A DNA stretch of 64,000 nt, from contig NZ_CP029562.1 in assembly GCF_004136315.1 (NCBI RefSeq), positions 4,859,501 through 4,923,500 of the forward strand, read 5' to 3'. A program made the position numbers and the translations under genes. Each line of letters begins with the position of its first letter. The stretch's first letter is position 1. The notes under the pieces were generated by a model, which did no database searches, was not told the origin of the DNA, and saw only the letters and a list, made by a program, of their open reading frames with translations. This document shows, piece by piece, positions 11,261 to 63,308 of this stretch. Source of the stretch: Mesorhizobium sp. Pch-S (GTDB lineage Bacteria > Pseudomonadota > Alphaproteobacteria > Rhizobiales > Rhizobiaceae).

Positions 11261-12369
11261 GCGTGGCGGTCGATATCGGCCATCAGCAAGGTGGCTTTTC
11301 GCTCGAGGCGGCTTTCGACAGCTCCGGTCGCCTGACGGCGCTGTTCGGCCCTTCCGGTTCCGGCAAGACCTCGCTGATCAATGCCATTGCCGGCCTGATC
11401 CGGCCTCGGCGTGGTCGCATCACCGTCGACGGACAGGTGCTGGTCGACACTGAAAAAGGCGTTTTCGTACCGAGGCATAAGCGCCGTATCGGAATGGTGT
11501 TCCAGGACGCACGCCTGTTCCCACACATGAGCGTGGCAGCCAATCTGGGCTACGGCCGCTGGTTCACGCCGACGACCGAGCGTTACGGCGATATGGGGGC
11601 CGTTGTCGAGCTGCTCGGCATCGGACATCTGCTCGACCGCCGGCCGGGCAAGCTTTCCGGTGGCGAAAAACAACGTGTGGCGATCGGCCGGGCACTGCTG
11701 GCCAGCCCGAAGCTGCTTCTGATGGACGAGCCGCTCGCCTCGCTGGATGAAGCCCGCAAGGCTGAAATCCTGCCCTACATCGAGAGGCTGCGCGACGAGA
11801 CGAAGATCCCGATCGTCTATGTAAGTCATTCGGTTGCTGAAGTGGCGCGATTGGCGAGCGACGTCGTGGTGATGACGCAAGGCAAGGTCGCTGCCGCAGG
11901 CCCGACCACCGAGATCATGCAGCGGCTCGATCTGCTTTCCCACGAGGAGCGGGTGGAAGGCGGTGCCGTGCTGGATACACGCGTGCTGCATCACGACGAG
12001 CGTTTCGGCATGACCGTACTCGGCTCGCCAGCGGGCGAGATCCGCGTCCCTTATGTGGAGGCCGTTGTCGGCCAGCCGGTCAGGGTTCGCATTCGTGCAC
12101 GCGACGTCATGATAGCAACCGAAAAGCCGCATGGTTTGAGTGCGCTCAACGTGCTGGCCGGTCGCATCGCGGCGATCGAGCCAGGTGAGGGGGCTGCGGT
12201 GGAAGTCCGGATCGATTGCAACGGGGTAGCGGTGATGGCGCGCATCACGCGGCAGTCGCAGCATGCGCTGTCGCTCGCCTCCGGTCGCGATGTCTTCGCG
12301 GTCATCAAGACCGTGAGTTTCGATCAGGCGAATATGGCTGCTGCTCCCAAGGGGCAATTCGACGCCTGA
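11257..12369 (+). CDS. modC: Molybdate ABC transporter ATP-binding protein
   Basis: A 370-residue ATPase. The nucleotide-binding domain shows Walker A LFGPSGSGKTSLINA near residues 29-43, signature LSGGEKQRVAIGRALLA near 132-148 and Walker B LLLMDEPLASLD near 153-164. The C-terminal part (about 290-365) is the TOBE/Mop regulatory domain (LNVLAGRIAAIEPGEG and ASGRDVFAVIKTVSFD), which binds molybdate and gives trans-inhibition in ModC. The length matches ModC (352 in E. coli). It overlaps modB by ATGA. Confidence 0.95.
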   Translation: MSVAVDIGHQQGGFSLEAAFDSSGRLTALFGPSGSGKTSLINAIAGLIRPRRGRITVDGQVLVDTEKGVFVPRHKRRIGMVFQDARLFPHMSVAANLGYGRWFTPTTERYGDMGAVVELLGIGHLLDRRPGKLSGGEKQRVAIGRALLASPKLLLMDEPLASLDEARKAEILPYIERLRDETKIPIVYVSHSVAEVARLASDVVVMTQGKVAAAGPTTEIMQRLDLLSHEERVEGGAVLDTRVLHHDERFGMTVLGSPAGEIRVPYVEAVVGQPVRVRIRARDVMIATEKPHGLSALNVLAGRIAAIEPGEGAAVEVRIDCNGVAVMARITRQSQHALSLASGRDVFAVIKTVSFDQANMAAAPKGQFDA

Positions 12370-12490
12370 TGCACGTCGCCAGCTTTGAGATCGGCTCCTT
12401 GCACATCAGATCTTTGATTTCACGCATGTTGTGATCACAAAACCGCTGCGCACTTTTGCGCGGCATGCGCAGGCGCAGCCTCTTGTCATG

Positions 12491-12513
12491 CGCTATTCTC
12501 TCATGGAATAACG
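12491..12513. promoter_or_regulatory. inverted repeat before modE, candidate Mo-box
   Basis: CGCTATTC (12491-12498), a 7-base spacer and GAATAACG (12506-12513) form an inverted repeat with seven of eight arm positions matching, and the outer CGnTAT matches the ModE operator consensus. It lies 40 bases before the modE start, so autoregulation is likely. Confidence 0.55.
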
Positions 12514-12552
12514 ACGGCAATAACAAGCAGCAACATAACGCGGGAGGAAAAC

Positions 12553-17477: not shown

Positions 17478-17663
17478 GTGCAGGACTTCTTTGCCGCCAT
17501 GGGCCTTGTCCTCGTCGTCGAGGGCCTGGTCTATGGCGGTTTTCCACGTCTGGCCAAGCGGCTTGCAACCGATGTCCTCGCCATGCCGGAAGGCGTATTG
17601 AGAATCGGGGGACTGGCGGCAATCGCCGCCGGTGTCGGCATCGTATGGCTGGTTCGCGGTTGA
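17478..17663 (+). CDS. DUF2065 small membrane protein
   Basis: A 61-residue protein with two hydrophobic helices (AAMGLVLVVEGLVYGGFP and LRIGGLAAIAAGVGIVWLV). The family DUF2065 (YjeT) is regularly encoded next to hflKC and is thought to be a small inner-membrane companion, with no defined role. It uses a GTG start three bases after the hflC stop, which implies coupled translation. Confidence 0.82.
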   Translation: MQDFFAAMGLVLVVEGLVYGGFPRLAKRLATDVLAMPEGVLRIGGLAAIAAGVGIVWLVRG

Positions 17664-17788
17664 AGGATGCGGCGTCACCTTGGGGATTTGTCTTCGCCGG
17701 GTGGTCAGGGCCGTAAACGTGCCTTATTTCTTTCCACACTGACGACATGTCGTTGAAAGCGTTCTTGCTGACTTGCCGGGAGGCCCTG

Positions 17789-19327
17789 ATGAAGTCCCAA
17801 TCCATCCTGCGTGCAGCAAGCAAGACGCTTGCCGCCGCCACTGCGGCGCTGATGCTTGGCACCGCAGCCGTTCCATCGGCCATTGCCCAGACGCAGGCTC
17901 CCGCAAACACCAAGGCAGCGCCCGCAGCCAATGGTCCGGCTTCGGTGGCGGATCTCGCCGAGGGATTGCTTGGTGCCGTCGTCAACATCTCGACGTCGCA
18001 GACGGTGAAGGGCAGCGAAGGTCCGGGCGCCGTGCCGATGCCGCAGCTGCCCGAAGGCTCACCCTTCCAGGACTTCTTCGACGACTTCTTCAAGGATCGC
18101 GGCGGTCAAAAGGGCGGCGGCGCACAGAAAGTGCAGTCGCTGGGCTCCGGTTTCGTTGTCGATGCCGTTGAGGGCATCGTGGTCACGAACAACCACGTCA
18201 TCGCGGACGCCGACGACATCGAGGTGAATTTCTCCGACGGGGTGACGCTGAAAGCGAAGCTGGTCGGCACCGATACCAAGACCGATATCGCGGTGCTGAA
18301 GGTGGATCCGAAGGGCCACAAGCTGACGGCCGTGAAGTTCGGCGATTCCAACAAGATGCGCATCGGCGACTGGGTCATGGCGATCGGCAATCCGTTCGGC
18401 CTGGGCGGCACCGTAACGGTCGGTATCGTCTCGGCACGTAACCGCGATATCAATTCCGGTCCCTATGACGACTTCATCCAGACCGACGCTGCCATCAACC
18501 GCGGCAATTCTGGCGGTCCGCTGTTCAACATGAACGGCGAGGTCATCGGCATCAACACGGCGATCATTTCGCCTTCTGGCGGCTCGATTGGCATCGGCTT
18601 CTCGATCCCGTCCCAGCTTGCGGCCGGTGTTGTCGATCAGTTGCGCCAGTTCGGCGAAACGCGGCGTGGCTGGCTGGGCGTGCGCATCCAGCCCGTCACC
18701 AAGGACATTGCCGAGAGCCTTGGCATGGCGGAGCCGAAGGGCGCGCTGGTGGCTGGTATCATCAAGGGTGGGCCGGTCGACAATGGTTCGATCCAGGCTG
18801 GCGATGTCATTACCAAGTTCGACGGCAAGGATATCGAGGAAACGCGCGACCTGCCGCGTGTCGTCGCGGAGAGCCCGGTCGGCAAGGCCGTCGACGTCAT
18901 CATCATCCGCAAGGGCAAGGAACAGACCGTCAAGGTCACGCTGGGTCGCCTTGAGGACGGCGAGAAGCTGGCGGATGCCGAAGGCAAGGGCGAGCCCGGC
19001 AAGGACGGAACGGCTGCGCCTGTGGCAGCAGCCAAAGTGCTTGGCATGTCGATCGGCGAATTGAACGACGACACGCGCGGCAAGTTCGGCATTGCCGCTG
19101 ATGTCTCCGGCGTGGTCGTTACTGAGGTCGCCAAGGATTCGGCAGCGGCCGAGCGTGGTATCCAGCCGGGCGAGGTGATCACCGAGATCGGACAGGAATC
19201 GGTGGCGACGCCCAAGGATGTCGTCGATCGCATCGCTTCGCTGAAGCAACAGGGGCGCAAGAACGCGCTGCTGATGCTTGCGTCCAAAACCGGAGAATTG
19301 CGCTTCGTGACCGTGCGGATGGATTGA
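17789..19327 (+). CDS. degP: Do-like periplasmic serine protease/chaperone (DegP/HtrA)
   Basis: A 512-residue envelope protease. The signal peptide ends near residue 33 (PSAIA-Q). The trypsin-like domain carries the catalytic triad His136 (VTNNHVIAD), Asp166 (TKTDIAVLKV) and Ser241 (NRGNSGGPLFN). Two PDZ domains follow, roughly 285-375 and 415-500. The stretch between 72 and 115 is the flexible LA-type loop, with an acidic-aromatic FQDFFDDFF patch. The start ATG 17789 after CGGGAGGCCC is preferred to ATG 17747, which would extend the signal peptide. It lies in an hflKC-degP quality-control cluster. Confidence 0.94.
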   Translation: MKSQSILRAASKTLAAATAALMLGTAAVPSAIAQTQAPANTKAAPAANGPASVADLAEGLLGAVVNISTSQTVKGSEGPGAVPMPQLPEGSPFQDFFDDFFKDRGGQKGGGAQKVQSLGSGFVVDAVEGIVVTNNHVIADADDIEVNFSDGVTLKAKLVGTDTKTDIAVLKVDPKGHKLTAVKFGDSNKMRIGDWVMAIGNPFGLGGTVTVGIVSARNRDINSGPYDDFIQTDAAINRGNSGGPLFNMNGEVIGINTAIISPSGGSIGIGFSIPSQLAAGVVDQLRQFGETRRGWLGVRIQPVTKDIAESLGMAEPKGALVAGIIKGGPVDNGSIQAGDVITKFDGKDIEETRDLPRVVAESPVGKAVDVIIIRKGKEQTVKVTLGRLEDGEKLADAEGKGEPGKDGTAAPVAAAKVLGMSIGELNDDTRGKFGIAADVSGVVVTEVAKDSAAAERGIQPGEVITEIGQESVATPKDVVDRIASLKQQGRKNALLMLASKTGELRFVTVRMD

Positions 19328-54454: not shown

Positions 54455-56455
54455 TCACGCCACCGCCAGTTGATCACCCCGCGCCAGCTGGATGCTCGGC
54501 ATATGGCAACGGATGAAGCCTGTCTCGGTCTTGCGAAGCGGCGGGCGGCTTTCGGCGCAGACCGTTCCGATCTGTCGCGGGCAGCGGCCCGCGAGCGGGC
54601 ATCCTTGCCCGCCTGCCGACGTCTCGCCGGGTATGGCCGGGGGGCTTGCGACATACTGGTCCCTGCGCAGCCCGGGTGCGGCCTGGAGCAGCATCTGGGT
54701 GTAGGGGTGCAGGGGGGATTCCAGCAGTGTGGCGGTCTCCGCCATCTGCAGGAGCTCGCCCCGGTATAGCACCGCCACCCTGTCGGCCAGCTGCTGCACG
54801 ACGGCAAGATCATGCGAGATGAACAGCATCGCGACGGAATGCCGCTTCTTGAGCGACTGCAGCAGCTCGACAATGCGCGACTGGACCGACACGTCGAGCG
54901 CCGACAGGATCTCGTCGCAGATCAGAAGCTTCGGGCTGACCAGCAAGGCGCGTGCGATGGCGATGCGCTGGCGCTCGCCGCCTGAAAGCTGTTCGGGGTA
55001 GCGGTTGAGATAGCCGGCATGCAGGCCGACGCTCTCCAGCACCGTTTCGAGCGTCGTGGCATCGGATTTGATGCCGAAATGGCGCAGCGGCCGCTCCAGG
55101 ATCGTCTTGATGCGCCTGCGCGGATTGAGCGAGGCGTCGGGATTCTGGAAGATGTACTGGATCTGCCGCAATTGCTCGACGGAACGCTGCCGTAGCACCG
55201 GTGCCAGCGCGTCTCCATCGAGGCGGATTTTGCCCGATCGCGGCTCCAGCCGGCCGCTGATCGCGCGGGCGATAGTCGACTTGCCGCTGCCGGATTCGCC
55301 GACAAGGGCGACGACCTCGCCCGATTTCAGCTCGAAACCGATGTCGCGGGCAACGATGCTGTCTGCCTTGCCCAGAAGGGTCCGAAGCACACTTGGCGAT
55401 TGGTACGACAGGGCAAGATCCTCGACGCTGAGCACCGATCCGGCATCGATGTCCGGGCGAGGCGAACGAGCCCGTCTCGTCAGTGCGGCGACGGCCGGTT
55501 CGATGTCCTTCCAACGCATGCAGGCGACGGCCCTGTGTTTCTCCACCGGTTCGAGTGTCTGCGGAATGCTCTTGCAATCCGCCTTGGCGAAGTCGCAGCG
55601 CGGTTCGAATTTGCAACCGCCGGGGATCTGGTCCCGCCTCAGCATCCCGCGCAGGCCGCGGCCGCTGCTTGCTCCGTCGATCGTCGGGATCGACGCGATC
55701 AGGCCGCGCGAATAGGGATGCACCGGGGCAGACAGCAACGCGTCGCAGGGCGCGACCTCGACCAGCTGGCCGGCATACATCACGCCGACACGGTCGGCGA
55801 TCTGGCTGAGCAGAGCCAGATCGTGGGTGACGTAGAGCATCGCCATGCCGATGCTGCTTCTCAGATCCTTCAACAGCTGGATGATCTGGCGCTGGGTGGT
55901 GACGTCGAGGCCGGTTGTCGGCTCGTCCAGGACAAGCAGATCGGGATTGCACGAGACCGCCATGGCAATGGTGACGCGCTGCTGCTGGCCACCCGAAAGC
56001 TCATGCGGGAACCGGTGGCCGACATCCGGCAGCCCGACCAGGGCGAACAGCTCCGCAAGACGCCGTTCCATGGTCATGCCGGCCGGCAGGGCCTTATGTG
56101 TCGCGATCATCTCGCGGATCTGCGTTCCGACCCGCATGCCCGGGCTGAGCGAGGTCGTCGGATTCTGCGGAACAAGCGCGATGCGTTTGCCGCGCAGGCG
56201 GGCCAGCGACCTTGCATCGAGTTTCAGGAGGTCGATGCCGTCGAAAAGCACCTCGCCGGTCTGCGCCAGACTGTTGACGGCACCGTAGCCGAGAAGACGG
56301 TAGGCGACGGTGGATTTGCCGCAACCAGACTCCCCGACCAGTCCGAACGCTTCCCCGCGCGCGATGTCGAACGAGACGCCCTGGACGACATTCGTCCAGC
56401 TGCCTGGGCGGCCATAGGCGATGCCGAGATTGCGGACTTCGATCAGCGTCTGCAT
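54455..56455 (-). CDS. Dipeptide/oligopeptide-type ABC transporter, fused double ATPase
   Basis: A 666-residue protein containing two complete nucleotide-binding domains that are usually separate DppD and DppF subunits. The first has Walker A GLVGESGCGKSTVAYRLLG near 39-57, LSGGQQQRVTIAMAV and LLVLDEPTTGLD, and ends with the oligopeptide-transporter tail CKFEPRCDFAKADCKSIPQ. The second has VALVGESGSGKSTIARAISG near 360-379, LSGGERQRIAIARALL and LLICDEILSALD, and ends CPLAGRCPRQIGTVCAES. Both cysteine tails typical of Opp/Dpp ATPases are present. It follows the second permease by two bases. Last gene of the onium/peptide-type operon. Confidence 0.93.
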   Translation of the reverse strand: MQTLIEVRNLGIAYGRPGSWTNVVQGVSFDIARGEAFGLVGESGCGKSTVAYRLLGYGAVNSLAQTGEVLFDGIDLLKLDARSLARLRGKRIALVPQNPTTSLSPGMRVGTQIREMIATHKALPAGMTMERRLAELFALVGLPDVGHRFPHELSGGQQQRVTIAMAVSCNPDLLVLDEPTTGLDVTTQRQIIQLLKDLRSSIGMAMLYVTHDLALLSQIADRVGVMYAGQLVEVAPCDALLSAPVHPYSRGLIASIPTIDGASSGRGLRGMLRRDQIPGGCKFEPRCDFAKADCKSIPQTLEPVEKHRAVACMRWKDIEPAVAALTRRARSPRPDIDAGSVLSVEDLALSYQSPSVLRTLLGKADSIVARDIGFELKSGEVVALVGESGSGKSTIARAISGRLEPRSGKIRLDGDALAPVLRQRSVEQLRQIQYIFQNPDASLNPRRRIKTILERPLRHFGIKSDATTLETVLESVGLHAGYLNRYPEQLSGGERQRIAIARALLVSPKLLICDEILSALDVSVQSRIVELLQSLKKRHSVAMLFISHDLAVVQQLADRVAVLYRGELLQMAETATLLESPLHPYTQMLLQAAPGLRRDQYVASPPAIPGETSAGGQGCPLAGRCPRQIGTVCAESRPPLRKTETGFIRCHMPSIQLARGDQLAVA

Positions 56456-56457
56456 CG

Positions 56458-57330
56458 TCAGGCTCCCATCACGGGCCGCTGGCCGAGCATGCGCGACAGG
56501 CCGTCGGTGAAAAGGTTGAATCCGATGACGAGTGATGCGAGGCCAAGTCCCGGCCCGAAAACCGTCATCGGCGAGGCGATCAGGAGGTTGCGGTTCTCGC
56601 TGATCATCAGGCCCCATTCCGGGGTCGGCGGGCGGATGCCGAAGCCGAGGAAGCCAAGTGCCCCGATCAGGATCGGCGCATAGCTCAGCCGCAGCGAAAA
56701 TTCGACGAGCAGCACATTGGCGGTGTTGGGCAGGATTTCGCGGAACACGACGGACAGTGTTCCTTCACCGCGCAGCTCCGCTGCGGCGACATATTCGCGG
56801 GTCGCGACCTCCATCGCTGCTGCGCGAGCGATGCGCGTGATGCGGGGCGCATAGACGATGGCAACCACGACGATGATGAGGGCCGGTTGTCCCGCGAGGG
56901 CGGGGCCGGCGGCAATGATCATGACCAGCGCCAGCGCCAGGAACGGTATGCTGATCATCGCTTCGACGACACGCTGCAGGATGTCGTCGAGCCAGCCGCC
57001 GACATAACCGGAGACGAGACCGATCGCGGCACCCGCGACCATTCCAAGCACGGTGCCGGCGAAGGAAAGCAGAAGCACGATATGGGCGCCGTACATGAAG
57101 CGGCTGAAGACATCGCGGCCGATCTGATCAAGTCCCATGGGGTGCTGCCAAGATGCCCCGGAAAGCGGCAGTCCCGCACCCATTTCGGCATAGCCGAAAG
57201 GGGTCCAAAAGATGCCGATGGTCGCAAACAGCAGATGGGTGGCAAGGATGATTGCGCCGGCCTTGAATGGCCCTGGCGCGGTATGCCAGCCGTGGAAGGA
57301 TCTGGCCGGGCGGGATACGATCGCGCTCAT
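56458..57330 (-). CDS. ABC transporter permease (DppC type)
   Basis: A 290-residue inner-membrane permease with about six helices. It shows the DppC/OppC N-terminal pattern (GAIILATHLLFATIGIFWTP; HPMGLDQIGRDVFSRFMYGA near 80-99) and the coupling loop REYVAAAELRGEGTLSVVFR near 183-202, then LPNTANVLLVEFSLRLSYA. The start at 57330 overlaps the stop of the DppB-like gene (TGATG). It partners the 57330-58280 permease and the fused ATPase. Confidence 0.92.
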   Translation of the reverse strand: MSAIVSRPARSFHGWHTAPGPFKAGAIILATHLLFATIGIFWTPFGYAEMGAGLPLSGASWQHPMGLDQIGRDVFSRFMYGAHIVLLLSFAGTVLGMVAGAAIGLVSGYVGGWLDDILQRVVEAMISIPFLALALVMIIAAGPALAGQPALIIVVVAIVYAPRITRIARAAAMEVATREYVAAAELRGEGTLSVVFREILPNTANVLLVEFSLRLSYAPILIGALGFLGFGIRPPTPEWGLMISENRNLLIASPMTVFGPGLGLASLVIGFNLFTDGLSRMLGQRPVMGA

Positions 57331-58280
57331 CAGCGTGTCCTCAGGCGTGGTTGCAGCAGCACTGCACAGATGTCGGCAACGAGGTTGGCCGCGACGTAGA
57401 CGGCAGCGCTGATCATCACGGTTGCCTTGATCAGCGGGATGTCGCGCAGCTGCAGCGCATCGATGAGCAGGGTGCCGAAACCCGGATAGGAGAAGACACG
57501 CTCCACGATCACCACGCCGCCGATCAGGAAGCCGAGGTTGAGGGCCGTCACATTGAGCGCCGGCACTAGGGCGTTGGGCAAGGCGTGTCGCCACAGCACC
57601 GCCGAAGGACGCATGCCCTTCAGCTCGGCCAACCTGACATAGTCGGAGCGCAGCACTTCGATCAGGCTGTCGCGCAGCACGCGGATGGCATAGACGGCCA
57701 TCATGATGGCGAGCGTCGTCGCCGGCAGGATCATCGCGCGCAGCATCTCCGGCCAGCTGCTGTGTTCCGAAACCGTTGCCAGTGCCGGCAGGATCGGGAC
57801 GGCGACGGCAAACAGGAACAGCAGGATCGTCGCCAGCAGGAAGTCGGGCAACGACAGCAGCACCAGCGTGATGACCGAGATGATGTTGTCTACTGCTTTG
57901 CCCCGGTTCGTCGCCTGGATGATCGCGGGAACCAACGCCAGGACCAGGTAAAGCACGAAGGCAAACAGCGAGAGTAGCAGCGTGTTGACGATGCGGGGCC
58001 CGAGCACGTCGGCGATCGGCCGCCCGGTCGCGAGCGAGGCGCCGAAATCACCGTGCAGCAGATTGCCGAGCCACTGGAAGTAGCGGGTCAGTGGTGGCTG
58101 GTCGAGGTGCAGCTGGCTGCGCAGCACCTCCAGCGCCTTTGCCGTCGCATCACGTCCGAGGATGCGGGTCGCGATGTCACCCGGCAAGGCTTCGAGGATC
58201 AGGAAGATCAGGACCGAGACGATCAGGAGTGTCAGGGCCGAGAGCAGGATCCGGCTGGCGAGGAGGCGCAATATGCTCAT
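57330..58280 (-). CDS. ABC transporter permease (DppB type)
   Basis: A 316-residue permease with about six helices. It opens MSILRLLASRILLSALTLLI, with GDFGASLATGRPIADVLGPR near 87-106 and the coupling region SDYVRLAELKGMRPSAVLWR near 206-225, then HALPNALVPALNVTALNLGF and VVIVERVFSYPGFGTLLIDA, all DppB/OppB signatures. It overlaps the cupin gene by ATGA, so the lyase-like cupin and the transporter are translated together. Confidence 0.92.
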   Translation of the reverse strand: MSILRLLASRILLSALTLLIVSVLIFLILEALPGDIATRILGRDATAKALEVLRSQLHLDQPPLTRYFQWLGNLLHGDFGASLATGRPIADVLGPRIVNTLLLSLFAFVLYLVLALVPAIIQATNRGKAVDNIISVITLVLLSLPDFLLATILLFLFAVAVPILPALATVSEHSSWPEMLRAMILPATTLAIMMAVYAIRVLRDSLIEVLRSDYVRLAELKGMRPSAVLWRHALPNALVPALNVTALNLGFLIGGVVIVERVFSYPGFGTLLIDALQLRDIPLIKATVMISAAVYVAANLVADICAVLLQPRLRTR

Positions 58281-58942
58281 TTCAGATCCAGTCCGGCTTG
58301 TGGTGGGGCGGCATCCACCGGCATGTGATCCGGGATGAATGCCGCATCGGTATCGAGGTCGCCCTCCCAGATGTAAAGCAGGACCAGGGGTCTTTCGGCC
58401 GAGAGCGTCGCGTGCGGCATCCACGACGGATGGTGGATAATCGCTTCGGTGCCGCGCGATGCCCAGTCCGCATGTCCGGCGCGCCAGAACGAAGGGCCGG
58501 TGACTGTATAATAGAGCTCATCGGCGGGGTGATGGTGAAGCGGGTAGTGCGTCCTGGGCCCGAGGAACATCAGGCCGAATGCGATGTCAGGGGCGGTGAT
58601 CAGTGCAGGCGGACCGCCCTGCGGGCCGCAGATGATGCCGTAGCCATAGTTGTCGCCGAATTCGCTGGAAGGTGGATTGGCGAGGTATGTCTTGCTGCGG
58701 GTGATATGGAGATGCGGCAGCAATTCGGACAGCGACCGCGCCAGCTCCGAGCTGCCATGGCGGGAAATCAGTTCGCTTTCGCAGGCTTCCTGGATAGGCA
58801 CGCGCGCTGCCGGCACCGGCCGTACCGGCGGCAGGCTGGCCTGCAGTGCGCGGAGCCGAGCCGCATGTGAGCGGGACACCGGCAGTGCGTCGCTGTCCAG
58901 CGCGTCCGCGAAGCTCTGCAGGAAGGTCGTCAGCACTTTCAT
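58277..58942 (-). CDS. DddL-like cupin, DMSP lyase family
   Basis: A 221-residue protein. A helical N-terminal half precedes a cupin core with FGDNYGYGIICGPQG near 95-109, GLMFLGPRTHYPLHHHPADE near 123-142 (candidate metal ligands His137, His138, Glu142, Tyr133 or Tyr144), EAIIHHPSWMPHATL near 166-180 (His177) and LVLLYIWEGDL near 186-196. This is the dimethylsulfoniopropionate-lyase family layout; DddL splits DMSP to dimethyl sulfide and acrylate by beta-elimination. No signal peptide is seen. Being inside an uptake operon it should act on the imported ligand, which need not be DMSP in a soil bacterium. The start at 58942 is preferred over 59059 for its AGAGG site. Confidence 0.78.
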   Translation of the reverse strand: MKVLTTFLQSFADALDSDALPVSRSHAARLRALQASLPPVRPVPAARVPIQEACESELISRHGSSELARSLSELLPHLHITRSKTYLANPPSSEFGDNYGYGIICGPQGGPPALITAPDIAFGLMFLGPRTHYPLHHHPADELYYTVTGPSFWRAGHADWASRGTEAIIHHPSWMPHATLSAERPLVLLYIWEGDLDTDAAFIPDHMPVDAAPPQAGLDLK

Positions 58943-59009: not shown

Positions 59010-60536
59010 CTATTGGCTGCAGGTGAGCTCGGAATAGTCGATGCGGTTGACGTCGACATTGGGCTTGAAACCGGTGCAGCCCTTACGCAGGCCTGCGACG
59101 ATGGACGTGAACACCGGCAGGATCATGCCACCCTCGTCGGCGACGATGCGCTGCGCGTCACGATAGAGGCCGATGCGGTCCTGGTCGTTGGTGGTCTGGC
59201 CTGCCTTGACGACGAGTGCATCGAAGTCGTCACGCTTCCAGTGCGTCTCGTTCCATTCGGACTTGCTGTTGAGCGACAGCGTCAGGGCTTCGGCCGGGGG
59301 GCGGGCGCTGGTGTAGGAGATGACGGCCGGCTTCTTCAGCCAGATCGTGTCCCAATAGCCTTCCGCCGGTGACGGGATGACGTTGACCTTGATGCCGGCA
59401 GGCGCCGCCATCTGGGCGTAGACCTGGGCGAGCAGCAGCATGCCGGGATAGGAATCCGACGTGTAGAGATCGAACTCGATGCCGTCGGCATGGCCGGCTT
59501 CCGCCAGCAACGCCTTGGCGCGCTCGACATCCGCCGTCTTGGGAGCCGTTCCGAGGCCCAGCGGCGAGCTCGGTGGGATGGGCGCGTCGTTTCCGATCTC
59601 GCCATAGCCGAGCAGCACGGTGTCGAGGATCTTCTGACGATCCATGACGAGCTTCATCGCTTCGCGGACCTTGGGATTGTCGAAGGGCCGCGTGTCCGTC
59701 CACACGGCGACATAGAGCGAGGTGGCTCCCGGCGTAGAGACGAGCTCGACGGCCGGATTGTCCTTGAGTGTGATCAGGCTGGTCGGATCGACGGTCAGCG
59801 ACAGATCCACCGAACCCGAAAGCAGCGCGGACAGCCGCGAGGTCGATTCCAGGCTTGTCGTGATCTCGAGGCAATCGGCCTTCGGCAGGCCGGCGCGCCA
59901 ATAATTGGCGTTGCGGCGCAGAACGCGGACGGCGCCGTTGATGGTGAAGCTCTCCTGTACGAAAGGTCCGGTCCCGTCACCCTTGACGCGCAGGTCTTCG
60001 GCCTTGGCGCCATCTGGAACCATCAAGGCGTATTTCGTCGCGATCAGCATCGGCAGCTCGACGACAGGTTGCTTGACCTTGAAACGCACGGTGTGGTCGT
60101 CAACGGCGGTGATGCCGTCGGCATCAAGGAAGGCAAGGGTCGAGAAACCGCCGGGTGAAACAGCTGGATCGAGCAGCCGGCGGTATGAATAGGCGACGTC
60201 GGCGGCGTCGAAGTCCGAACCGTCATGGAACTTGACGCCCTTCCTCAGGTGGAAGGTCCATTCCGTCGCATCGGCGTTGGATTCCCAGGATTCGGCAAGC
60301 ACCGGTATCGGCTGCATCGCGTTGTTGCGGTCGACGAGCGGCTCGTAGACCGCGCGGATATGATAGACGCTGTCGGTGCCGATGAGTGCCGCCGGATCCA
60401 TGGTCTGCTTTTCGCCATCTGATTCGTAACCGAGCACGCGCATGCAGCTTTGTTGCGCAAAAGCGGCTGTGGCTGGCAGCGAGCAAGCCCCCAGGAGCAG
60501 CGCCACCGCGGTGTTTTTCACGAGATTGGTTTTCAT
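59010..60536 (-). CDS. ABC transporter substrate-binding protein (family 5, peptide/opine type)
   Basis: A 508-residue periplasmic receptor of the SBP_bac_5 family. The signal peptide MKTNLVKNTAVALLLGACSL ends near AFA-QQS, about residue 27. Motifs are QTMDPAALIGTDSVYHIRAV near 44-63, YEPLVDRNN, EWTFHLRKGVKFHDGSDFDA near 92-111 and ADVAYSYRRLLDP. The C-terminal RQKILDTVLLGYGEIGNDAP is also typical. It is the first gene of the operon, behind a promoter that is duplicated before the secreted lyase. Family members bind peptides, opines, glutathione, nickel chelates and other zwitterions. Confidence 0.92.
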   Translation of the reverse strand: MKTNLVKNTAVALLLGACSLPATAAFAQQSCMRVLGYESDGEKQTMDPAALIGTDSVYHIRAVYEPLVDRNNAMQPIPVLAESWESNADATEWTFHLRKGVKFHDGSDFDAADVAYSYRRLLDPAVSPGGFSTLAFLDADGITAVDDHTVRFKVKQPVVELPMLIATKYALMVPDGAKAEDLRVKGDGTGPFVQESFTINGAVRVLRRNANYWRAGLPKADCLEITTSLESTSRLSALLSGSVDLSLTVDPTSLITLKDNPAVELVSTPGATSLYVAVWTDTRPFDNPKVREAMKLVMDRQKILDTVLLGYGEIGNDAPIPPSSPLGLGTAPKTADVERAKALLAEAGHADGIEFDLYTSDSYPGMLLLAQVYAQMAAPAGIKVNVIPSPAEGYWDTIWLKKPAVISYTSARPPAEALTLSLNSKSEWNETHWKRDDFDALVVKAGQTTNDQDRIGLYRDAQRIVADEGGMILPVFTSIVAGLRKGCTGFKPNVDVNRIDYSELTCSQ

Positions 60537-60566: not shown

Positions 60567-60637
60567 GACTATGAAAACGCTGCCGTTCCCTTGCAAACGA
60601 TTAGAATTAACGTCTACATGAACAGAATTCATGTGGC
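60567..60637. promoter_or_regulatory. promoter plus conserved operator, SBP operon/LysR (copy A)
   Basis: On the minus strand TTGCAA (60591-60596) and CATAGT (60568-60573) with a 17-base spacer form the promoter of the binding-protein operon. Just behind the -35 a conserved element (60593-60633) begins GCAAACGATTAGAATTAACG and contains the perfect inverted repeat ACATGAA (60616-60622), CAGAA, TTCATGT (60628-60634). The same promoter and element, 31 of 41 positions identical, recur before the secreted lyase at 63242-63308. LysR-type activators bind at such positions. Confidence 0.75.
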
Positions 60638-60646
60638 TTGCGAGAG

Positions 60647-61522
60647 ATGGTCCGGCGTACCTTACCACCCCTGACGACGCTGAGGGCCTTCGAGGCCGCG
60701 GCACGATTGCTCAGTTTCAAGGGCGCTGCCGAGGAGTTGCGTGTCACGCAGTCGGCGATCAGCCACCAGGTCGCATCGCTTGAGCGGAATCTGGGTCGGC
60801 CGCTGTTTCGGCGGTTGCCGGGACGGGTTGAACTGAGCGAGGAGGGGATGCTGTATTTTCCGGTCGTGCAGGATGCACTGGACCGGATTTCGCTGACCAC
60901 CGACCTGATCCGGCAATCGAGCGCCCCGGCATCGCTGACGCTCCAGGTCTATGTCACGGTGGCGGTGCGGTGGCTGATTCCGCGGCTGCAGACGCTGAAG
61001 GAAACCTCTCCCGAGATCGCGGTCAGCCTCGATGCGAGCCTTCTCGACTGGGAGTTCAATCCCGACCGGGCCGATGTCGGCCTCATCTATACCCGCACGC
61101 CAAACCGTCCGAACCTGACATACGTGCTGCTGCGGCGAGAGAAGCTGGTGGCGGTATGCTCGAGCGCCATCGCCAAGGCGATCAAAACGGTCGATGACCT
61201 GCGCCACTTCCCATTCCTGGCGGTTTCCGGCAGAACCGAGGACGTTTCGATCTGGGCCGAGAGCGTCGGCATTTCCGGCCTTTCGCAGAAATCGTCGCCC
61301 CTGTTCGACAGCAATCTGCTTGCCATCGAGGCTGCCGTCAGCGGGCAGGGGATCGTCGTGGTCCCGGAGTTCCTGGTGGAGGCCGATCTCGCCAGCGGCA
61401 GCCTGATTGTGCCGGTCCAATCCGATATCATGCAGCCGGGCGGATGGTACCTGGCTTATCTTCAGCGCCGCGGCGACGAGAAGGCGATCCAGAAATTCCA
61501 GAACTGGATCCAGTCTCTATGA
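60647..61522 (+). CDS. LysR-family regulator (GcvA-like)
   Basis: A 291-residue LTTR. The winged helix has LTTLRAFEAAARLLSFKGAA near 9-28 and EELRVTQSAISHQVASLERN near 29-48. The effector domain runs from about 90 (SLTLQVYVTVAVRWLIPRLQ; VVVPEFLVEADLASGSLIVP). It is divergent from the SBP/cupin/ABC operon, with a shared operator between. The identical type of element before the lyase gene at 63214 makes that gene a second target. The start ATG 60647 is preferred over TTG 60638. The terminator at 61524-61553 closes it. Confidence 0.92.
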   Translation: MVRRTLPPLTTLRAFEAAARLLSFKGAAEELRVTQSAISHQVASLERNLGRPLFRRLPGRVELSEEGMLYFPVVQDALDRISLTTDLIRQSSAPASLTLQVYVTVAVRWLIPRLQTLKETSPEIAVSLDASLLDWEFNPDRADVGLIYTRTPNRPNLTYVLLRREKLVAVCSSAIAKAIKTVDDLRHFPFLAVSGRTEDVSIWAESVGISGLSQKSSPLFDSNLLAIEAAVSGQGIVVVPEFLVEADLASGSLIVPVQSDIMQPGGWYLAYLQRRGDEKAIQKFQNWIQSL

Positions 61523-61523
61523 T

Positions 61524-61553
61524 GGAAGCCCGCGAGGCGGGCTTCCGAATTTT
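61524..61553. terminator. terminator between converging LysR and lyase genes
   Basis: GGAAGCCCGC (61524-61533) and GCGGGCTTCC (61537-61546) form a perfect 10-bp stem around GAG, followed by GAATTTT. It starts two bases after the LysR stop, and the converging lyase gene ends at 61571. Confidence 0.85.
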
Positions 61554-61570
61554 CCAATCAAATTGGCCGC

Positions 61571-63214
61571 TTACTGGGTCTTGCTGCCATAGGTCTTGAG
61601 AAACGCCGCTCCCGCGGAGATGTCGGGCGTCATCGAACGGTCCTGGTCGAGGAAGGGGACCTTTTCGCGGAAAGCGTCGTGTAGTTTGGCCGTCGCGGTG
61701 GCAAGCTTGCGTTCCGGATGTTCCTTCAGGCGCAGGTCGGCTGCCTGGGCGGCGTGCATCAGTTCCATCGACAGGATGGTGAAGCTGTCGTCGATCTGCT
61801 GGCGTACCCGCTCGACAACGTAGGGCGCGTTGGTGCCGACATCCTCCACGCCGCCCGCGATGGGACGTGAGTCGAACGAGGTCGGCTGCGCCAACGAGCG
61901 GGCCTCGGCAGCCATTGCCATCAGCGGCGCTTCCACCACCAGGAAGGCATGATGGGTGTTTTCCGTGCCGAGGTAGCGCGGCAGCTTCGTGTGGGTGGGG
62001 TTGTTCAACTTCAGCACGCGCTCGGACGACGCCGTGGCATGATGCGCCAGCACGATGCCCAGCTCCTCGAAGGAAATGACCCATGGCAGCGGTTCGAAAT
62101 TGGCCGTCGGCAACACAGCGCCGCCTTGGACGTAACCTTTGCGGGCCTGCGGCAGGTCGGATTTCGGCTCGACGTCGATGGTGATGCCGGGATTGTCGTC
62201 TGAGGAATTGATCTGGATTTCCACCAGCGCCTTGGTTCGGGCCAGGCTGTCGGCGAAGCTGCCAAGCAGGTATGGCGCCGTGCGAAAGCTCAGCGGATCT
62301 TGCAGGATGCGCTTTTCGTCTGCCTGCCAGAGATAGCTGCCGGCCAGCACATCCCGAAGCCCGGAAGTCGAATCGACATAGCTCGGAAAGGGCCTGAGTG
62401 CCGCGACATCCTGCAGGAGCGGCGAGACGTTTCCATTCAGCCCTTCCAGGCTGAGACCGTAGACCAGCTTCGAGGTCTCCAGCAGCTGTTCCGCGTCGTG
62501 GATGGCGATGGAAGCGAGTGCTGCCGCATAGGCGTTGGAGCTCAGGATCGCCAGTCCGTCCTTGCCGAACGGCTTCAGCGGTTCGATGCCGGCGGCGGCC
62601 AATGCCTCCTTGGCAGGCATGCGTTGGTCCTTGTGGTAGACCTCGCCTTCACCCAGCATGGCCAGTCCGATGTGGCTGAGCAGCGTCATGTCGGCCTGGC
62701 CCACCGAGCCGCGCGAGGGCATCACTGGTGTGATATCGTTGTTCAGGAATGCGACGAGCATTTCGGCGACATGCGGCTGGACACCAGGGCCGCCGGTCAG
62801 GATGTTGTTCAGGCGGACCGCCATCGCGGCGCGCACGACCGGAACGGCGGTGTCGGGACCGACGCCGACGGAATGGGCGCGCAGCAGCCCCTCGTTGAAT
62901 TCCCGCGAAGCCTCCATCAGCTCAGGCGTCAGTTCGCCCTTGGCATCGACCATCTTGCGGTCCTTGTTCCAGCCGACGCCGACGGTCAGGCCGTAGATTT
63001 CCTGCCCTTCTTTCGCGCCCTGCAGAAGCACTGCATAGGCACGCTTGACCTTGTTGATGCTCTCGCCGCTGACCGAGACGTTCTCGCCATTTGCCACGCG
63101 GACAATCATTTCGGGAGTGGTGCCGTGGCCGCTCAAGGCAACGTCAGCCAAGGCGGTTCCGGACAGGAGCAGGACGATGCCGATCGTTCCGGATAGAAGG
63201 CGCAGACTTTTCAT
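61571..63214 (-). CDS. Secreted HAL/PAL-superfamily lyase lacking the MIO triad
   Basis: A 547-residue protein of the aromatic amino-acid lyase fold with a Sec signal peptide (MKSLRLLSGTIGIVLLLSGT, cut near residue 23, ALA-DVAL). Fold motifs are present: IYGLTVGVG (73-81, Tyr74), LLRAHSVGVG (110-119), EIQINSSDDNP (332-342) and SERVLKL. The MIO-forming Ala-Ser-Gly is replaced: MPSRGSVGQADMTLLSH has Gln173-Ala174-Asp175. QDPLSFR (305-311) has Leu where HAL has Tyr, and LAILSSN (221-227) departs from the HAL LxxLNGT. It cannot make MIO, so it is either a non-MIO eliminase, as ergothionase is reported to be, or a binding protein. Export of this fold is unusual. Confidence 0.85.
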   Translation of the reverse strand: MKSLRLLSGTIGIVLLLSGTALADVALSGHGTTPEMIVRVANGENVSVSGESINKVKRAYAVLLQGAKEGQEIYGLTVGVGWNKDRKMVDAKGELTPELMEASREFNEGLLRAHSVGVGPDTAVPVVRAAMAVRLNNILTGGPGVQPHVAEMLVAFLNNDITPVMPSRGSVGQADMTLLSHIGLAMLGEGEVYHKDQRMPAKEALAAAGIEPLKPFGKDGLAILSSNAYAAALASIAIHDAEQLLETSKLVYGLSLEGLNGNVSPLLQDVAALRPFPSYVDSTSGLRDVLAGSYLWQADEKRILQDPLSFRTAPYLLGSFADSLARTKALVEIQINSSDDNPGITIDVEPKSDLPQARKGYVQGGAVLPTANFEPLPWVISFEELGIVLAHHATASSERVLKLNNPTHTKLPRYLGTENTHHAFLVVEAPLMAMAAEARSLAQPTSFDSRPIAGGVEDVGTNAPYVVERVRQQIDDSFTILSMELMHAAQAADLRLKEHPERKLATATAKLHDAFREKVPFLDQDRSMTPDISAGAAFLKTYGSKTQ

Positions 63215-63241
63215 TAGGATCCCCTGAAGTTGTTTCGGGGG

Positions 63242-63308
63242 GACTATCGAAATTTAGAAACACGCCCGCAAATGATCAGATTTTACGTCCACGTGAGCAA
63301 TTTTCATG
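63242..63308. promoter_or_regulatory. promoter plus conserved operator, secreted lyase (copy B)
   Basis: On the minus strand TTGCGG (63266-63271) and GATAGT (63243-63248) with a 17-base spacer form the promoter. The element 63268-63308 begins GCAAATGATCAGATTTTACG and continues CACGTGAGCAATTTTCATG. It aligns without gaps to 60593-60633 at 31 of 41 positions, in the same orientation and about the same distance from its gene (28 versus 31 bases from start codon to GACTAT). Confidence 0.75.

Follow-up and report, generated by a model that had tools for sequence, protein, structure and literature searches.

Organization of the locus

We have analyzed a 64,000-nucleotide stretch of DNA from Mesorhizobium sp. 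Pch-S (hereafter the window; bases 4859501-4923500 of a one-contig genome of 6.62 Mb), in which a gene for a LysR-type transcriptional regulator (LTTR) lies between two minus-strand promoters that share a 41-base element. The lysR gene (60647..61522, plus strand, with an alternative TTG start at 60638) encodes a protein with HTH_1 and LysR_substrate domains, whose nearest NCBIfam model is GcvA, at a score below the cut-off of that model. It is neighbored on the minus strand by a gene (61571..63214) for an ergothionase-like lyase of family PF00221, which lacks the triad that forms the 4-methylideneimidazole-5-one (MIO) group and whose N-terminus by eye resembles a signal peptide. On the other side of lysR, likewise on the minus strand, lies a transport operon. 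Its first gene encodes an ATP-binding cassette (ABC) substrate-binding protein of family SBP_bac_5 (59010..60536; closest solved relative YliB, N-terminus again signal-peptide-like by eye), followed by a cupin of the dimethylsulfoniopropionate (DMSP) lyase family PF16867 (DMSP_lyase; 58277..58942), two ABC permeases (57330..58280 and 56458..57594) and a fused double ABC ATPase (54455..56617). The starts of the cupin and the first permease gene are inferred; for the second permease and the ATPase the longest frames are given, and the true starts are probably located further in.

A bipartite element at two promoters

The initial annotation of this DNA had proposed that the regions ahead of the binding-protein and lyase genes align without a gap, and this is indeed the case. 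GACTAT (60567-60572 and 63242-63247) is followed after exactly 20 bases by the 41-base element, at 60593-60633 for the transport operon and at 63268-63308 for the lyase, with 31 of 41 positions identical. The two intergenic regions are 110 and 113 bases long, and this is the best ungapped 41-mer between them. None of 5000 pairs of dinucleotide-preserving shuffles of both regions reached 31 identities (mean 19.97, maximum 27), and elsewhere in the window, the two sites aside, the best 41-mer agrees with the transport element in 21 positions. On the minus strand we find TTGCAA-N17-CATAGT for the transport operon (-35-like hexamer at 60591..60596, -10-like hexamer at 60568..60573) and TTGCGG-N17-GATAGT for the lyase (63266..63271 and 63243..63248), in line with the predicted TTGC-type -35 and 17-base spacer. 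The distance from the -10 hexamer to the ATG is similar as well, 31 bases for the transport operon and 28 for the lyase. A scan for promoters of the E. coli sigma-70 type called neither of them, which argues against a plain sigma-70 reading; its sole match, with 0.5 expected by chance, was ATGAAA-N16-TAAAAT at 63307-63280 on the minus strand, inside the lyase element.

Outside the element, identity drops to 15/60 downstream of the -10 hexamer and to 6/17 in the spacer between the hexamers, values at or near chance, so that the shared part is an operator rather than a copied promoter region. It consists of two conserved blocks. The distal one is the putative recognition site, ATGAATTCTGTTCAT at the transport promoter (60618..60632, minus strand) and ATGAAAATTGCTCAC at the lyase promoter (63293..63307, minus strand). 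The former is a 5-5-5 palindrome with a T-N11-A motif, centered about 64 bases upstream of the start of transcription, and this motif is present in 8/8 transport-type sites and also in the lyase site. Note that transcription starts were inferred at all sites and that distances are counted from them. The second block (60597..60612 and 63272..63287, both minus strand; limits set by eye) resembles an activation site and terminates in ATC-N-TTTGC, touching the -35 hexamer. The general layout is thus a T-N11-A palindrome near -64, a second block in contact with a TTGC-type -35, 17 bases and NATA[GC]T. Recognition sites of LTTRs usually center near -65, with a second site at -35 (PMC12016517).

On the opposite strand, all eight transport-type sites read TTGCAA-N17-CTACAT toward lysR, a pattern found in none of the six lyase-type sites, where no lysR gene starts. 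In the window the -10-like CTACAT lies at 60614..60619 on the plus strand, and the TTGCAA at 60591..60596 doubles as the -35-like hexamer. As the pattern is confined to transport-type sites, the operator would overlap the promoter of lysR itself, suggesting autoregulation. The TTGCAA is self-complementary, and in the region 60591-60619 it may serve two divergent promoters.

Distribution of the element in this genome and its relatives

Two profiles were used for searches, R1 trained on nine sites drawn from both promoter types and R2 on five transport-type sites only; their E-values are rough by the scanning tool's own statement. With 150 of 232 first-look candidates scored, R1 matched the Pch-S genome twice at E<=10. 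Both were the sites in question, a result that is partly circular. The fairer test is R2, which recovered the transport site (E 3.7e-15), followed by the lyase site (E 0.0021), and no third match at E<=10 over the 6.62 Mb, with 150 of 282 first-look candidates scored. The element was therefore not found at many unrelated promoters, the finding that according to the initial annotation would have spoken against a regulon, and the outcome supports the two-promoter reading. A blastn search of the same genome with the 91-base transport region did not recover the lyase site, as the elements are too short and too diverged.

A species-level scan (84,980 species, one genome each) yielded six loci with a relative of the lyase, two of them from one metagenome-assembled genome (MAG). 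The order lyase, LysR, binding protein, cupin, permease, permease, ATPase is kept, as far as the contigs extend, in four: L026 from Mesorhizobium, L027 from Aquamicrobium, L028 from a Sinorhizobium MAG and L030 from Phyllobacterium. The closest named locus is that of Mesorhizobium sp. 1M-11, with a lyase 95% identical. Identical gene order is also present on pSymA of S. meliloti 1021 (L064), in L059 and in S. meliloti ml28 (L065), where the annotation reads hutH, LysR, substrate-binding protein, dimethylsulfoniopropionate lyase, permeases and ATPase. Lyase matches occurred in 32 plasmid records, of which 26 belong to Sinorhizobium.

Six genomes (the window, L026, L027, L030, L059 and L064) from four genera, Mesorhizobium, Aquamicrobium, Phyllobacterium and Sinorhizobium, contain the two sites together, as does ml28. 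Matches outside the R1 training set are those on pSymA (both sites), in L059 (both) and in L058 (one); the transport site of pSymA is identical to the L028 site used for training and hence not independent. L028 shows the transport site alone because its contig starts 36 bases ahead of the lyase gene. All 14 intact sites among the 16 examined have T-N11-A, the 17-base spacer and 64 bases from the palindrome center to the inferred start, and the spacers of the two promoters of one genome agree at merely 2-8 of 17 bases. The other two sites belong to damaged loci. In L031 (145-994), where a Sinorhizobium MAG has its second copy of the lyase, the site is short of seven bases between the blocks and scores 21.4 bits with R1, and the lyase homology ends at residue 255 although the contig continues. 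In L029 (Agrobacterium genomosp. 13) the lyase site is degenerate and missed by R1, the homology of the LysR orthologue (11655-12529) is divided over two frames, and the 21.6 kb fetched contain no match to the binding protein, cupin or permeases. To judge by these remnants, LysR, transport operon and lyase site have decayed jointly.

In an even draw of 394 genomes of the family (at most 16 sites, 3 lyases and 6 LysR proteins scored per genome), a LysR orthologue of at least 77% identity was found in four, G000, G197, G270 and G435, and the fifth match at E<=1e-75 is only 45% identical. Strong sites (E <1e-9) occur in the same four genomes, two each in G000, G197 and G270 and one in G435. Note that G000 and G270 (the latter probably the L030 Phyllobacterium) contributed training sites. 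Three of the 394 genomes contain a close lyase orthologue (at least 82%); in six more, which belong to a single genus, the lyase relative is 43-44% identical and no site was found. In G435 (L058, 8855-16094) LysR and the transport operon are present with a single site; the lyase is not adjacent, it is absent from the 19.9 kb of L058, and none was found elsewhere in that genome at E<=1e-100. Among 61 relatives, 36 of them of the same genus besides Pch-S, lyase matches outside the Pch-S genome reach just 33-36%. A phylum-wide draw of 398 genomes (at most 3 lyases scored in each) contained the lyase at E<=1e-100 in the Pch-S genome alone, so that the system is rare or patchy; the Burkholderia and other relatives discussed below were obtained by separate searches.

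In summary, LTTR geometry in 14 of 16 sites, two sites in the genome, a pair kept in six genomes and the co-occurrence with LysR lend good support to the proposed two-promoter regulon, and with a probability of roughly 80% we predict the two elements to be operators of the one LysR-type regulator encoded between them. Several points weigh against this assignment. The R2 E-value of the lyase site is modest and roughly calibrated, the first-look candidates were scored in part, and this site is among the two least symmetric intact ones (3/5 arm pairs). Weak R1 matches (E 0.004-0.05) in eight other genomes of the family are not explained by the system. As the sites adjoin lysR, their co-occurrence is partly plain linkage. 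Finally, no site at E<=10 accompanies the six lyase relatives outside the arrangement (L060, L061, L062, L066, L067 and L068), and the operator thus does not track the lyase family at large.

The element might instead belong to another regulator that binds both promoters, with the LysR gene incidentally in between. Other candidates do exist: a different LysR gene adjoins the lyase gene of S. meliloti ml28, the window includes the end of a Peripla_BP_4 (LacI-like) gene upstream, and SMa0306, annotated as a histidine ammonia-lyase (HAL), forms a row in a table of the PhaR paper (PMC12542648). Nevertheless, we consider this explanation unlikely, as inspection by eye of the open reading frames that precede the lyase gene (L026, L027, L030 and L059) revealed no common regulator, LysR is the one regulator that all examined clusters with intact sites have in common, and the geometry of the sites is that of an LTTR operator.

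The lyase and the cupin

The lyase had been labeled HAL-like, and its match to PF00221 (E 1e-130) as well as database records that name some relatives histidine ammonia-lyase would be in line with a genuine ammonia-lyase for histidine or another amino acid, as annotated. This is very improbable, however. The protein reaches 292 of the 539 bits that the NCBIfam hutH model requires, and among solved structures ergothionase (6s7j, 290 bits) is by far its nearest relative, followed by a probable HAL with 169 bits. The MIO-forming Ala-Ser-Gly is replaced by a shorter Gln-Ala (GSVGQAD) where ergothionase has SSIGEGD, and the triad is missing in all of the best 120 of 1820 homologues, the window's own included. 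Given the absent triad and the proximity to ergothionase, histidine is probably not the substrate, and the enzyme most likely eliminates trimethylamine from ergothioneine or a closely related histidine betaine. A crude hydrophobicity count assigned a signal-peptide-like N-terminus to 101 of these 120 homologues, and the lyase is predicted to be exported.

The ergothionase from Treponema denticola (6s7j, 6s7q) has the same fold family as judged by sequence, the same loss of one residue at the MIO triad and a common GVGWNKD motif; the present protein, a putative ergothionase, differs in its signal-peptide-like N-terminus. Maurer is said to have described, in 2019, four essential catalytic residues of ergothionase. 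The absence of MIO from ergothionase is also stated in a 2026 paper (PMC13405746).

Relatives of the lyase at 44-54% are often located within catabolic clusters. On a plasmid of Burkholderia arboris (L068, 6953-16560; a high-GC locus whose genes were located by tblastn) a 54% relative lies beside genes for HutU-like, S-methylthiohydantoin desulfurase-like (S-Me-THD), amidohydrolase and M20 proteins, and the same neighbors accompany a relative in genome G228. We read these clusters, from two lineages, as probable ergothioneine-type routes to glutamate. Other relatives with other neighbors speak against such a role, namely a hut cluster in Paracoccus, a YeiH-type exporter and a PhnD-type binding protein in Polaromonas, and a further case in Agrobacterium. 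So does the Pch-S genome itself, where no S-methylthiohydantoin desulfurase was found and the single urocanase is located elsewhere; a full ergothioneine route was consequently not found in it. In L029, a second PF00221 gene (17620-19215) lies beside hutF- and hutU-like genes and reads GSLGYITHAA where HAL has GSVGASGD; its product is apparently another MIO-less lyase.

The cupin scores 158 bits with the PF16867 profile, at a cut-off of 27, and retains the His/Glu/Tyr/His positions with which the DMSP lyase DddQ and its relatives align, presumably the metal ligands of DddQ. The relationship is remote, with E 2e-13 for the closest chain in the PDB, and this putative DMSP lyase differs from DddQ in lying inside an ABC operon. 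A cupin accompanies the peptide-type ABC operon in the window and in 8/8 other loci with the transport operon (L026, L027, L028, L030, L058, L059, L064 and L065).

A model for the proposed regulon

That the pair of elements goes back to a recent duplication of a promoter region without regulatory meaning, as their similarity at a distance of 2.7 kb within one genome could suggest, is hardly credible, since the identity does not extend beyond the element and the pair is kept in six genomes whose own two spacers have diverged.

The arrangement is the usual LysR-type layout, and the regulation is ordinary in kind. The model that follows is one in which we infer LysR binding and activation, the inducer, export, the substrate and the cargo of the importer. 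One dimer of a LysR tetramer would hold the ATGAA-N5-TTCAT-like site some 64 bases upstream of each start, and the other would sit on the conserved block in contact with the weak -35. An inducer would shift the dimer at this second block and thereby recruit RNA polymerase; the weakness of the hexamers, neither of which the sigma-70 scan calls, suits activation. Co-induced would be the exported MIO-less lyase and the ABC importer with its DMSP-lyase-family cupin. Were the lyase active outside the cytoplasm, either the betaine or thiourocanate released from it could be the cargo of the importer. The closest parallel is a LysR-type regulon such as that of BhbR1 (PMC12016517), likewise with a 15-base imperfect palindrome, T-N11-A near -65 and a second site at -35. 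In the present case, by contrast, the bipartite site recurs at another, separate target promoter 2.7 kb away, and the regulator falls near the GcvA group, below the curated cut-off.

The likely role of the system is the regulated uptake and cleavage of ergothioneine-like betaines. A more specific proposal is tentative, and we hold it at less than even odds: a single LysR would sense ergothioneine, a related histidine betaine or thiourocanate and induce two unrelated onium-eliminating lyases, an exported MIO-less trimethylamine lyase and a cytoplasmic DMSP-lyase-family cupin with its ABC importer. In that event, rhizobial symbiosis plasmids and chromosomes would carry a regulated module for betaine cleavage.

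In the titles and opening lines of abstracts on ergothionase and thiourocanate, LysR sites, DMSP lyase cupins, the S. meliloti transportome, and ergothioneine together with Sinorhizobium meliloti, a survey that left subscription papers mostly outside, we found no earlier account of the regulon. Two S. meliloti genes appear in passing in other papers, the LysR gene SMa0303 (PMC11387232) and the aforementioned SMa0306 (PMC12542648), and they presumably are the genes at the S. meliloti position of the cluster.

Implications

The pairing of enzymes is the interesting part, as ordinary regulation joins three genes of open role, a MIO-less lyase of a kind frequently labeled HAL, a DMSP-lyase-family cupin (here in a probable soil bacterium) and a peptide-type importer. 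As the cluster with both sites resides on a plasmid of a model symbiont, pSymA of S. meliloti 1021, the prediction is testable. If true, it would mean that a large group of proteins has to be reannotated, 1820 at E<=1e-80 among 8000 scored, with the triad checked in the best 120. It would also suggest that rhizobia use ergothioneine, a product of fungi and actinobacteria, as a nutrient.

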